A DNA stretch of 64,000 bases, from positions 1,228,001-1,292,000 of the forward strand of contig NZ_CP107052.1 in NCBI RefSeq assembly GCF_025736875.1. Direction: 5' to 3'. Below are positions 53,377 through 58,613 of the stretch, in pieces; the first letter of the stretch is position 1; every line of letters starts with the position of its first letter. The DNA comes from Candidatus Kirkpatrickella diaphorinae. GTDB taxonomy: Bacteria > Pseudomonadota > Alphaproteobacteria > Acetobacterales > Acetobacteraceae. The translations under genes and the position numbers were made by a program. Below the pieces are notes generated by a model. It was not told the origin of the DNA, did not search any database, and was given only the letters and a program-made list of their open reading frames with translations.

Positions 53377-53829
53377 TCACCCCAGCTTCGCCTTTACCAA
53401 TACGCTCATTTTCCCCATATCGAGTTGCGCACCGTGTTGCGCCCGCAACCAGCTCATGACGTTTTTAAGGTCTTTGACCGAATGCGCGCCCGTCTCGGAC
53501 AGCGCTTTCTGCACGATGATCTCCAGATCCGCATCACTCAGCGGCGGCGGCAGGTAATGCTCGATCGTCGCAATTTCAGCCTCTTCCTTCTCGGCCAGTT
53601 CGGGCCGGTCACCTTGACGATAAAGCGCGGCGGATTCACGCCGGGATTTAATCATGGAACGCAGCGCCGACAGCATCGTCCCCTCATCCAATGCTGCATC
53701 TTTCGCCCGTAATTCAATATCGAGATCCTTGAACCTGCTGGTGATGGCGCGAAGCTGCGCAACCCGCGTCATATCCCGCGCCTTCATGGCGGTTTTGAGG
53801 TCCTCGTTAATCCGGTCTCTTAGCGACAT
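53377..53829 (-). CDS. GatB/YqeY domain protein
   Basis: 150 residues from ATG 53829, which has an excellent GGGAGG 7 nt upstream; a longer frame extends across the promoter region and is not used. It is a YqeY-like protein with MSLRDRINEDLKTAMKARD at the start, LRSMIKSRRESAALYRQGDRPELAEKE-type helices and a C-terminal tRNA-binding-like GatB/YqeY helical domain (VMSWLRAQHGAQLDMGKMS). These resemble the tRNA-interacting tail of the GatB amidotransferase, but their role is unknown. It precedes dnaG on the same strand by 111 bp, an adjacency seen in many bacteria. Confidence 0.92.
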   Translation of the reverse strand: MSLRDRINEDLKTAMKARDMTRVAQLRAITSRFKDLDIELRAKDAALDEGTMLSALRSMIKSRRESAALYRQGDRPELAEKEEAEIATIEHYLPPPLSDADLEIIVQKALSETGAHSVKDLKNVMSWLRAQHGAQLDMGKMSVLVKAKLG

Positions 53830-53896
53830 ATTTCGGCCTCCCATCATGCCGTTTTCCATGAAATCCAATGAAGGCTTATCCCAGAAGCATCGTCGA

Positions 53897-53911
53897 GGGA
53901 ATAAATTTCCC
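53897..53911. promoter_or_regulatory. inverted repeat site 1 (GGGAA-N5-TTCCC) in the yqeY/carA intergenic region
   Basis: GGGAA (53897-53901), spacer TAAAT and TTCCC (53907-53911). It has the same arm sequence and spacer length as the site at 53937-53951, centre to centre 40 bp. It lies on the yqeY side of the divergent region. Confidence 0.55.
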
Positions 53912-53935
53912 ACCTCTTTCGCAGCCGACACCGAG

Positions 53936-53952
53936 TGGGAAAAAACTTCCCA
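53936..53952. promoter_or_regulatory. inverted repeat site 2 (TGGGAA-N5-TTCCCA) overlapping the carA -35 box
   Basis: TGGGAA (53936-53941), spacer AAAAC and TTCCCA (53947-53952): perfect 6-bp arms. Its right arm coincides with the proposed carA -35 hexamer. A further GGGAA half-site at 54002-54006 covers the carA ribosome binding site. Confidence 0.6.
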
Positions 53953-53975
53953 AACACATTTTACCCAATTATATA
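53947..53975 (+). promoter_or_regulatory. candidate carA promoter
   Basis: -35 TTCCCA (53947-53952, four of six consensus bases), exactly 17 bp of spacer, and -10 TATATA (53970-53975, with TATAAG in the same stretch). Predicted start of transcription is near 53982, giving a leader of about 30 nt before the carA ATG. Confidence 0.5.
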
Positions 53976-54012
53976 AGTCGGTGCAGATGTAGATGTAAAA
54001 AGGGAATGCGCC

Positions 54013-55356
54013 ATGGATGTCGACCTCCTGATTAAAAAACTTGGCGGGGCAGATCAATTGGCTGAGCTGACAAATGTCGGGCCGGAGGCTGTGCGCAAAT
54101 GGCGTCAATCCCGCGCCATTCCGGCCAAGCATTGGCCTGCGCTTTTACAACTTCCCGGCATTTCCATGGAAGACCTCACTGATACCGGGCCCGCAGCGTC
54201 CTGCGATGATACAGGCCGCCCCCATGGCGCGACGGCTGTGCTTCTCCTCGCCGATGGCACGATCCTGTGGGGTCGGGGCTTCGGTGCCCATACGACGCAG
54301 GCAGCCATCGGGGAAATCTGCTTCTGCACCGGCATGTCCGGCTATCAGGAGACTTTGACGGACCCATCCTATGCAGGCCAACTCGTCACCTTTACCTTTC
54401 CGCATATTGGTAATGTCGGGACAAATGCGGAGGATGATGAGGCACGGCGCGTTGCCGCGCGCGGAGTCATCGTCAAACAGGACATTACCAGCCCGGCCAA
54501 TTGGCGCGCAACCGCCCCCCTTGCTGAATGGATGCAGGCCCAGGGTCTGACCGGGCTATCCGGGGTTGATACGCGCTTCATCACGCATCTTCTGCGTGAA
54601 AAAGGCCCCCAATCCGCCGGTATCTTCTACCCGCAGGACGGTGTGTTCCCCATAGAGACTCTCCTGGCGGAAGTGCGTTCCTGGCCGGGGCTTGAGGGGA
54701 TGGATCTCGCCAAAGCGGTGACCTGCGCGCAGGCCCATAAATGGACGGAACCCGTCTGGGGCGGGACGCCGCCTTCCGGCCCGCTCAAAAGGGTCGTTGC
54801 GATTGATTACGGTGCCAAGCTGAATATTCTGCGCTGCCTCGTCTCGGCAGGCTGTGAGGTCACGGTTGTGCCCGCGACCAGCTCAGCTGAAGAGATCATG
54901 ATGTATAATCCGGAGGGTATTTTTCTCTCCAATGGTCCGGGGGACCCGGCTGCAACGGGGACGTACGCCGTGCCCGTCATCAAGGCGCTCCTGAAATCAG
55001 CCGTGCCGATCTTCGGGATCTGCCTGGGGCATCAGCTTCTGGCCCAGGCCCTCGGTGCGCGGACTTATAAGCTGGAGCAGGGCCATCGCGGCGCCAACCA
55101 GCCTGTCAAGGAGCTGGCAACAGGCAAAGTCGAAATCACGAGCCAGAATCACGGTTTCGCGGTTGATGAGCAGAGCCTGCCGGAAGATGTCATCGTGACG
55201 CATACGAGCCTCTTTGACGGCTCGAATGAGGGGATTGAAAGCCGGACCTACCCTGCTTTCTCCGTCCAATATCACCCTGAGGCCAGCCCCGGCCCGTCCG
55301 ATAGTTTTTACCTCTTTGAACGCTTTGTTGCGCTGATGAATAAAAAGGCCGCCTGA
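54013..55356 (+). CDS. carA: carbamoyl-phosphate synthase small subunit with N-terminal helix-turn-helix domain
   Basis: 447 residues, about 60 longer than a typical CarA. Residues 1 to about 55 form a Cro/YdaS-like helix-turn-helix: [25 protein letters not shown] and [13 protein letters not shown]. The CarA proper starts near 73 ([17 protein letters not shown]) and has [19 protein letters not shown] and a class I glutamine amidotransferase domain with nucleophile C337 ([10 protein letters not shown]), H421 and E423 ([11 protein letters not shown]). It supplies ammonia from glutamine to CarB for arginine and pyrimidine synthesis. ATG 54013 has AGGGAA 7 nt upstream, and the frame has no stop between the domains. 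I recall a small domain called carph-isopro in public annotations that may be the same; not verified. Confidence 0.95.
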
Positions 55357-55358
55357 AT

Positions 55359-58300
55359 ATGCCGAAAAGAACCGATATCGCGTCCATCCTCATCATCGGT
55401 GCCGGCCCTATCGTGATCGGGCAGGCCTGTGAGTTCGATTATTCCGGCACGCAGGCCTGCAAGGCGCTGCGTGAGGAGGGTTATCGCGTCATTCTGATCA
55501 ACTCCAACCCGGCGACGATCATGACCGATCCGGGCCTCGCCGACGCGACCTATGTGGAGCCGATCACGCCGGAATTTGTCGAGCGCATCATCCTGAAGGA
55601 AAAACCCGACGCGCTTCTGCCAACCATGGGTGGGCAAACGGCGCTGAATGTCGCCATGGCCCTCGACCGGTCGGGTTTTCTGAAGAAACACGGCGTCGCT
55701 TTGATCGGCGCGGATGCGGATGTCATTGACCGCGCGGAAGACCGCCAGAAGTTCCGTGAGGCCATGAATGAAATCGGCGTGGAAAGCCCGCGCAGCGCCA
55801 TCGCGCACACGCTGGAGGAAGCACGCACGGCGCTGGATATTGTCGGCCTGCCCGCCATCATCCGCCCCTCTTTCACTATGGGCGGCGCAGGCGGCGGGAT
55901 TGCCTATAATCGTGAGGAATTTGACCATATCGTGACGGGCGGGCTGGATGCCTCCCCCACGACGGAAGTCCTGATTGAAGAATCTGTCCTTGGCTGGAAG
56001 GAATTTGAGATGGAGGTGGTCCGCGATAAAGCGGATAACTGCATCATCGTCTGTTCCATTGAGAATATCGACCCGATGGGCGTCCATACAGGTGACTCCA
56101 TCACTGTCGCCCCCGCTTTGACGCTGACGGATAAGGAATTCCAGCGTATGCGGGATGCCTCAATCGCCTGTCTGCGCAAGATCGGCGTGGAAACGGGCGG
56201 GTCCAACGTGCAATTCGGCGTCAACCCGGTGGATGGACGCATGGTTGTCATTGAGATGAATCCACGCGTCTCGCGCTCCTCCGCTCTTGCCTCTAAAGCG
56301 ACAGGTTTCCCGATTGCGAAAATCGCCGCCAAGCTCGCGATCGGTTATACGCTTGATGAATTGCGCAATGACATTACCGGCACGACCCCGGCGAGTTTTG
56401 AGCCGACGATTGATTACGTAGTTGTTAAAATCCCGCGTTTCACTTTTGAGAAATTTCCCGGCGCCCCGGCTCTGCTTTCCACCTCCATGAAGTCGGTGGG
56501 GGAGGCCATGTCGGTTGGGCGCTGCTTTACCGAGGCTCTGCAGAAAGGTCTGCGGTCGATGGAAACCGGGCTGACCGGTCTTGACCCGATTGAGCCGCCC
56601 GGTGATGGCTCCCACGATGCCTACCGCGCGGCCCTTTCCGAGCCGCGTCCGGAACGCATCCTTATGGCCGCGCAGGCTTTGCGTGCGGGCCTGTCCATCA
56701 GCGACATCCATCATGCCTGCCGGTTTGAGCCGTGGTTTCTGGAGCAATTGCAGACCATTATCGAGGCCGAGCAGCATATTCGTGAGAATGGCCTGCCCCG
56801 TTCCCCCCTTGCCCTGCGTCAAATCAAAGCGATGGGTTTTTCGGATCGGCAGCTTGCGCAGCTCAGCGATATGACGCCCCAGGCCATTGCCGATCTTCGG
56901 GCGCGGCTGGGTGTGCAACCCGCTTATCGCCGTATCGACACATGCGCGGGGGAGTTCGCCTCCTCCACCCCCTATCTTTACAGCAGTTATGAGGGCGGGT
57001 TCGGCACGCCAATCTGTGAAAGCGCGCCGACCGAAAGCCGGAAAATCGTCATATTGGGCGGCGGGCCAAACCGGATCGGCCAAGGCATTGAATTTGATTA
57101 TTGCTGTGTCCATGCGGCCTATGCTTTGCGTGAGGCCGGGTTCGAGACCATCATGGTCAATTGTAACCCGGAGACGGTTTCCACCGATTATGACACGTCA
57201 GATCGCCTTTATTTTGAGCCCCTGACCGATGAGGACGTCATCGCCCTGATCCGCCGTGAGCAGGAAAAGGGCGAGGTTCTGGGCTGTATCGTGCAGTATG
57301 GTGGTCAGACTCCGCTTAAACTCTCCGCCGCGTTGGAGAAAGCGGGCATTCCCCTCCTCGGCACCCCGGCCGATGCTATTGACCGCGCGGAAGATCGTGA
57401 GCGCTTTCAGGCGCTTCTGCGCAAACTGGGCCTGCGCCAGCCGGAGAACGGCATTGCCCGCAACCCGGGCGAGGCTGAAGCTATTGCTGAGAAGGTCGGT
57501 TATCCCGTTGTTGTGCGGCCCTCCTATGTTTTGGGCGGGCGCGCCATGGAAATCGTGCATGATCCGAATGGCCTGCAACGTTACCTCCTCAGCACCTTGA
57601 TGCTTGCGGGCCGTGAAGTTTCGTCCGGGCCCATCCTGCTGGATCATTACCTCAATGACGCGATTGAGGCGGATGTGGACTGCATCTCGGACGGTCATGA
57701 CGTCTATGTTGCTGGGGTGATGGAACATATTGAGGAAGCAGGGATCCACTCAGGTGACTCAGCCTGTTCAATCCCCCCTTATACCCTGCCCCCCTCCATC
57801 GTGACGGAATTGCGCAGCCAGACGGAAGCCATGGCCCGTGAGCTGGGCATCGTCGGTCTGATGAATGTGCAATATGCCATCAAGGATAATGAGGTCTTTG
57901 TTCTGGAGGTGAATCCCCGCGCCTCCCGGACGGCCCCCTTTGTCGCTAAAGCGACAGGTGTGCCGATTGCGAAAATCGGTGCGCTGGTCATGGCAGGCCG
58001 AAAGCTTTCCGAATTTAAGCTGGATGGTGACGCCATCGCACCGCATGTGGCGGTTAAAGAGGCTGTGTTCCCCTTCCATCGTTTTGCCGATACGGACACG
58101 ATCCTCGGGCCGGAAATGCGCTCAACCGGTGAAGTTATCGGGCTGGATAGCAGCTTCGAACGCGCCTTCGCCAAAGCCCAGCTTGCGGCGGGGGTTGTCC
58201 TCCCGCAGGAGGGCACCGTGTTTCTTTCCGTCCGGGATGGTCACAAGCCTCAAATTCAGGCTTTGGGCCGCAAATTGATCGATATGGGGTTCCAGATCAT

Positions 58301-58613
58301 GGCGACGCGCGGCACAGCGGATCGGCTTGAGGAGTCCGGTATCTCCGTCAGGCGCGTTAATAAGGTGCTGGAGGGCCGCCCCCATTGCGTCGACGCGATT
58401 CGCTCCGGTGAGGTCCAGATGGTGATCAACACGGTGACCGGTGCGCAGGCTGTGCGGGATAGCTTTGATATTCGCCGCTCTTCCCTGCTGGGCGGCGTGC
58501 CGCATTTTACCACGCTCGCCGGGGCGCGCGCCGCGATTTACGCCATCTCCGCCATGCGCGATGGCGCGCTGGAGGTGTCGCCTCTGCAATCTTATTTCAG
58601 GCGGTCATTTTGA
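55359..58613 (+). CDS. carB: carbamoyl-phosphate synthase large subunit
   Basis: 1084 residues starting 2 bp after carA. Two homologous ATP-grasp halves: the first (about 1-400) has [21 protein letters not shown] and [22 protein letters not shown]; the second (about 555-935) has [22 protein letters not shown] and [22 protein letters not shown]. An oligomerisation domain lies between them, and a C-terminal MGS-like allosteric domain (about 945-1080) contains [16 protein letters not shown]. It forms carbamoyl phosphate from bicarbonate, ammonia and two ATP. The family layout is complete and nothing is missing. Confidence 0.97.

Follow-up and report, generated by a model that had tools for sequence, protein, structure and literature searches.

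What acts on the two matching inverted repeats upstream of carA in Candidatus Kirkpatrickella diaphorinae, and could it be CarA itself? The stretch of DNA analyzed here (the window; 64,000 nucleotides, positions 1228001-1292000 of a 2.18-Mb, single-contig genome) carries yqeY on the minus strand, a 183-bp intergenic stretch, and then carA and carB, the latter presumed to share the carA promoter (Table 1). An earlier note on this sequence had remarked that the repeats are of the kind bound by a dimeric Cro-like protein and that CarA carries such a domain. Comparative sequence analysis now indicates that CarA is very probably both an enzyme and a Cro-like autorepressor of carAB; it most likely switches off its own gene, because a DNA-binding head on the protein is accompanied by two matching sites in the promoter.

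Table 1. Positions of genes, candidate operators, and predicted promoter elements at the carA locus (window coordinates)
Feature	Coordinates	Strand	Remarks
yqeY, divergent neighbor	53377..53829	-	Not the operators' partner
Operator O1, distal candidate	53896..53912		AGGGAATAAATTTCCCA; 10/10 match to GGGAA-N5-TTCCC
Operator O2, proximal candidate, over core promoter	53936..53952		TGGGAAAAAACTTCCCA; perfect 6-bp arms
Predicted carA -35 box, TTCCCA	53947..53952	+	Coincides with O2 right arm
Predicted carA -10 box, TATATA	53970..53975	+	
GGGAA in carA Shine–Dalgarno region	54002..54006	+	Sequence reading only; no partner TTCCC arm
carA, carbamoyl-phosphate synthase small subunit with N-terminal Cro/YdaS-like HTH, 447 aa	54013..55356	+	
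Cro-like HTH domain, CarA residues 1-55	54013..54177	+	
carB, carbamoyl-phosphate synthase large subunit	55359..58613	+	ORF start 2 bp past carA stop

The two GGGAA-N5-TTCCC repeats reported in the earlier note are present upstream of carA, at 53897-53911 (GGGAATAAATTTCCC) and 53937-53951 (GGGAAAAAACTTCCC), with starts 40 bp apart, and the arms of O2 are as perfect as had been claimed. These are the only two matches in the window, where shuffled sequences predict 0.11, and the whole genome holds eight, versus three for the reversed control motif. The other six matches all fall within open reading frames, leaving the carA pair as the only noncoding ones. A wider regulon of this motif was considered and rejected, given these intragenic locations and counts in five relatives that were only modestly above the reversed control. 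The O1 15-mer is identical in a genome of the same genus (L010), and the operator consensus across the family is TGGGAA-N5-TTCCCA, spanning 17 bp with an A/T-rich center. The further half-site that the note had placed at the carA ribosome binding site does not hold up in the same way, since this GGGAA lacks a partner arm and is probably the Shine–Dalgarno sequence rather than an operator half-site.

The body of CarA matches TIGR01368 with 445.6 bits (cut-off 307) and, with Cys337, His421, and Glu423 invariant among 20 aligned CarA proteins, has the intact glutaminase Cys-His-Glu of a carbamoyl-phosphate synthase small subunit. Ahead of this body, residues 4-45 match the Pfam families YdaS_toxin and P22_Cro; the YdaS_toxin match scores 26.4 bits for whole CarA, under the cut-off of 30, and 30.8 bits for the domain alone, and both families match all 30 relatives scanned. 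The domain scores 67 bits against the NCBIfam model NF046037, “carph-isopro” (cut-off 38), and the corresponding domains of relatives are also well above that cut-off. Among proteins of solved structure, the domain is related in sequence to XPH1, Xfaso-1 Cro, N15 Cro, and P22 Cro; the predicted HTH fold (mean pLDDT 82) is best matched by N15 Cro with its operator and by Xfaso-1 Cro, with weak E-values and a probability of 1.00. A model of full-length CarA is confident in the HTH and not in the linker at about residues 58-61. Profile and fold thus agree on a helix-turn-helix of the Cro/P22_Cro/YdaS type, which bears out the Cro-like domain that the earlier note had recognized at the N terminus of CarA. 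A role as a toxin in a toxin–antitoxin pair, of the YdaS kind, would be suggested by the Pfam name alone, and the domain belongs to a housekeeping enzyme. The recognition helix spans about residues 24-33 and is near-invariant (E25, A, R28, K29, W, R31, and Q32); Glu25 and Gln32 are the specificity residues, and helix geometry would place positions 25, 28/29, and 32 on one face.

The domain and the sites have a shared distribution. The HTH profile is present in 378 of 397 family genomes and in 98 of 102 genera; most of the 19 genomes without it are fragmented assemblies, and the near-complete assemblies G030, G140, and G233 encode a CarA that lacks the domain. The exact pair GGGAAN5TTCCC-N18-38-GGGAAN5TTCCC occurs in 147 of the 397 genomes, with one match each, and the reversed control in none. 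Random scatter, an outcome that the earlier note had named as a refutation, is thus not observed. Scoring as a pair any two sites with ≥13/16 core positions lying 33-58 bp apart, we found paired sites upstream of 169/170 Acetobacteraceae carA genes that encode the HTH (L161 has a single site); with a stricter cut-off (≥14/16) the figure remained 169/170 loci, versus 4/850 dinucleotide shuffles and 2/1365 downstream control windows. No HTH-less carA gene carries the pair (0/17, including those of G030/G140 and G233 within the family), and domain and sites thus disappeared together twice, independently, inside the family. The conservation upstream of domain-bearing carA genes on which the earlier proposal depended is therefore found, as is the absence of sites where the domain is absent. 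Named loci among the CarA relatives come from Gluconobacter, Acetobacter, Asaia, Neokomagataea, Saccharibacter, Bombella, Swaminathania, Tanticharoenia, and Rhodopila. The loci L137, L139, and L141 represent two small-genome lineages (1.7-2.1 Mb) that lack both HTH and operators, and these could serve as natural knock-outs for comparing carAB control.

The sites also change with the recognition helix. Replacement of Gln32 (by Ser, Ala, Thr, or His) or of Glu25 (by Asp) usually goes with an operator that reads CGGAA-N5-TTCCG or nearly so, the outer operator base pair changing with the residues (GGGAA to CGGAA). After removal of near-duplicates, 135 loci were available for counting: residue and operator are both changed in 11 and both standard in 122, a single locus (L153) combines a changed residue with the standard operator, and another (L187) combines standard residues with a changed operator. 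The outer base is thus altered in 11/12 loci with a Glu25/Gln32 change versus 1/123 otherwise (Fisher test, p = 3e-14, a value that ignores the relatedness of loci), and L153 and L187 partly break the specificity rule. On a tree built from the CarA body without the HTH, the residue change has five origins, four of which fall on the same branch as an operator change; random placement of changes gave at most three coincidences in 200,000 draws. We used this branch-coincidence test because the Treekit pair test, in which about four of five pairs changed in the same direction and none in the opposite one, cannot reach significance with five pairs. Palindromic sites and residue–base co-change both bear on operator binding by a dimer, and co-loss and co-change together support the view, held in the earlier note, that the partner of the sites is probably CarA's own N-terminal domain.

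The position of O2 relative to the predicted promoter points to how such binding might act. The earlier note had read the right arm of O2 as the carA -35 box, with TATATA beyond a 17-bp spacer, and this promoter call is well supported because the same layout is kept in relatives of its promoter class. Two such classes are found across loci, 78 “near” and 61 “far.” In “near” loci, the 17 bp between the two boxes are typically taken up by O2, in the order TTGnnn (T 91, T 88, G 91%), one base, O2, one base, and a -10 box that starts with TA; in “far” loci, which are mainly those of acetic acid bacteria and include the window, the right arm TTCCCA doubles as the -35 box, with a -10 box beginning in TA (T 82%, A 84%) 17 bp farther on. 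O2 lies over the core promoter in both classes, and a protein on O2 would therefore block RNA polymerase. O1–O2 spacing varies from 36 to 55 bp and is mostly 38-40 bp, with further groups at 44 and 50 bp; because of this clustering strict helical phasing is unsupported, and the “four helical turns” of the earlier note do not generalize beyond the window. In some “near” loci (L018, L019, L029, L030, and similar), the predicted -10 box stands only about 10 bases before the likely start codon, which suggests a carA mRNA that is leaderless or has a very short leader.

In bacteria, an operator is usually the target of a separate regulatory protein, and the palindromes might likewise be bound by a protein other than CarA that controls carAB. 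We consider this quite improbable, since sites and HTH are present together, lost together, and changed together at recognition-helix positions. The usual candidate, ArgR, was found in 0/40 genomes (this genome and 39 relatives) by a search that recovered ArgR from E. coli and others as a control, and ArgR-controlled carAB was rejected on this basis; within the Proteobacteria, ArgR has been reported to be conserved among gammaproteobacteria but missing from the other classes (PMC5343134). That the HTH binds the sites and activates, or mainly organizes DNA, instead of repressing is an improbable reading to which the upstream position of O1, where activators can sit, lends some weight, and the regulatory sign is not readable from sequence; against it, in most loci O2 coincides with the 17-bp spacer or the -35 box, where repressors that act by occlusion usually sit.

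The remaining alternatives fare worse. An RNA hairpin of the carA leader, acting as attenuator or riboswitch, would explain why the change from GGGAA/TTCCC to CGGAA/TTCCG preserves complementarity, as RNA stems would; O1 and O2, however, would not be transcribed because each is located on the predicted promoter or upstream of it, no credible Rfam match was obtained, the arm changes track a protein residue, and the published carA RNA motif is mostly in Polynucleobacter (PMC8632094), all of which makes this reading very improbable. Equally hard to sustain is an assignment of the operators to the divergent yqeY: this gene does lie within 1.5 kb upstream in 158/170 loci, but the site pair is kept in the 12 loci without yqeY nearby, and yqeY stands beside HTH-less carA in G030, G140, and four outgroups, all of them without sites, so that the sites follow HTH-carA and not yqeY. 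Chance palindromes in the intergenic region can be dismissed almost entirely: the simple 15-mer does have a few chance matches per genome, but this explanation is refuted by family-wide conservation and by zero control matches for the exact pair.

We strongly infer from these comparisons that CarA would bind O1 and O2, and we further infer that it would do so in the cell and as a dimer, that O1 and O2 cooperate, and, because of site position, that the outcome is repression rather than activation. CarA has two features of a trigger enzyme, a fused DNA-binding domain and candidate sites on its own promoter. In the model of autorepression that we propose, the body of CarA would make carbamoyl phosphate with CarB, and its first ~55 residues, tethered by a short flexible linker, would form a DNA-binding domain of the Cro type. 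These domains, paired through CarA/CarB oligomers or through contacts of their own, would bind the 17-bp consensus at O2 and at O1 ~40 bp upstream; with both sites occupied, probably cooperatively, RNA polymerase would be blocked, and carAB would therefore fall with enough CarA or with CarA in the right allosteric state. Natural candidates for the effector would be UMP, ornithine, arginine, or IMP. E. coli CarA/CarB is a heterodimer with UMP and a tetramer with ornithine and MgATP (PMC6245113), and we propose, because of this change in oligomeric state, that oligomer-dependent pairing of the heads could act as a natural switch. One point against the model is that it requires the enzyme's body to accommodate an additional DNA-binding head.

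Self-repression by an enzyme by way of a fused DNA-binding domain is rare, and PutA is the textbook case. PutA, a trifunctional protein with a ribbon-helix-helix fusion that represses its own genes (PMC5293562), resembles CarA in that a metabolic enzyme is extended at its N terminus by a domain that binds DNA; it differs in enzyme, pathway, fold (ribbon-helix-helix versus Cro-type HTH), and operator, and, unlike CarA, acts in catabolism and responds to a known switch (proline/membrane). In E. coli, carAB is controlled by ArgR, PurR, RutR, PepA, and IHF (PMC6245113); the operon is the same and transcription is likewise controlled at the promoter, with a trigger enzyme (PepA) among the regulators, but these are separate proteins, whereas in the present case the DNA-binding domain is part of the enzyme subunit. 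The CarA HTH shares its fold, by model and profile, with the phage Cro proteins N15, Xfaso-1, and P22, and shares with them palindromic operators of 16-17 bp over promoters; recognition helices of Cro proteins have likewise been reported to correlate with operator half-sites (Hall 2005, as cited in PMC4997575). In contrast to phage Cro, the CarA domain is fused to a housekeeping enzyme, has two sites rather than several and another operator sequence, and lacks a phage context. The domain is already catalogued as NF046037, “carph-isopro” being a domain name, and we found no paper using NF046037 or dealing with HTH-CarA, its operators, or its regulation in a search confined largely to openly accessible literature, a negative that is therefore no proof of novelty.

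From the “carph-isopro” name, at least one more class of enzymes with a Cro head may be expected. When 385 genomes from across the taxonomic class were searched, one other enzyme so equipped was found: GlmU in G051, of another alphaproteobacterial family, has a CarA-like Cro HTH at its N terminus (L227:1-1647, minus strand), seen in this single genome, the sole one examined of its family and order. This fusion is not among the NF046037 matches listed, and upstream of it AGGAATTAAATTCCC (1711-1725) matches the palindrome at 9/10 positions, a match that on its own is within chance. The one remaining outside hit, in genome G563, is a protein of 124 aa that has this domain (NF046037, 43.6 bits; L226:1369-1743, plus strand); it is encoded divergently to a phage-type repressor gene and is likely a phage Cro, which is consistent with a phage origin of the HTH domain; tblastn found no relatives of the domain in plasmid and phage records. 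It is conceivable, and we put it forward tentatively, that CarA captured a Cro-type phage repressor domain in an ancestor of the Acetobacteraceae and became a metabolite-sensing autorepressor replacing control of the ArgR/PurR type, and that the same domain on other enzymes (the GlmU fusion; the hint in “isopro”) marks a general class of self-regulating enzymes with a Cro head.

If the autorepression model is true, it would add a self-repressing enzyme at the step where arginine and pyrimidine synthesis part ways, one that spans a whole family (Gluconobacter, Acetobacter, Asaia, and the bee-associated Bombella) in which ArgR was not found. The natural swaps of operator and residue would then offer a ready specificity code, and a DNA-binding head that needs pairing would give a direct route from metabolite to promoter.
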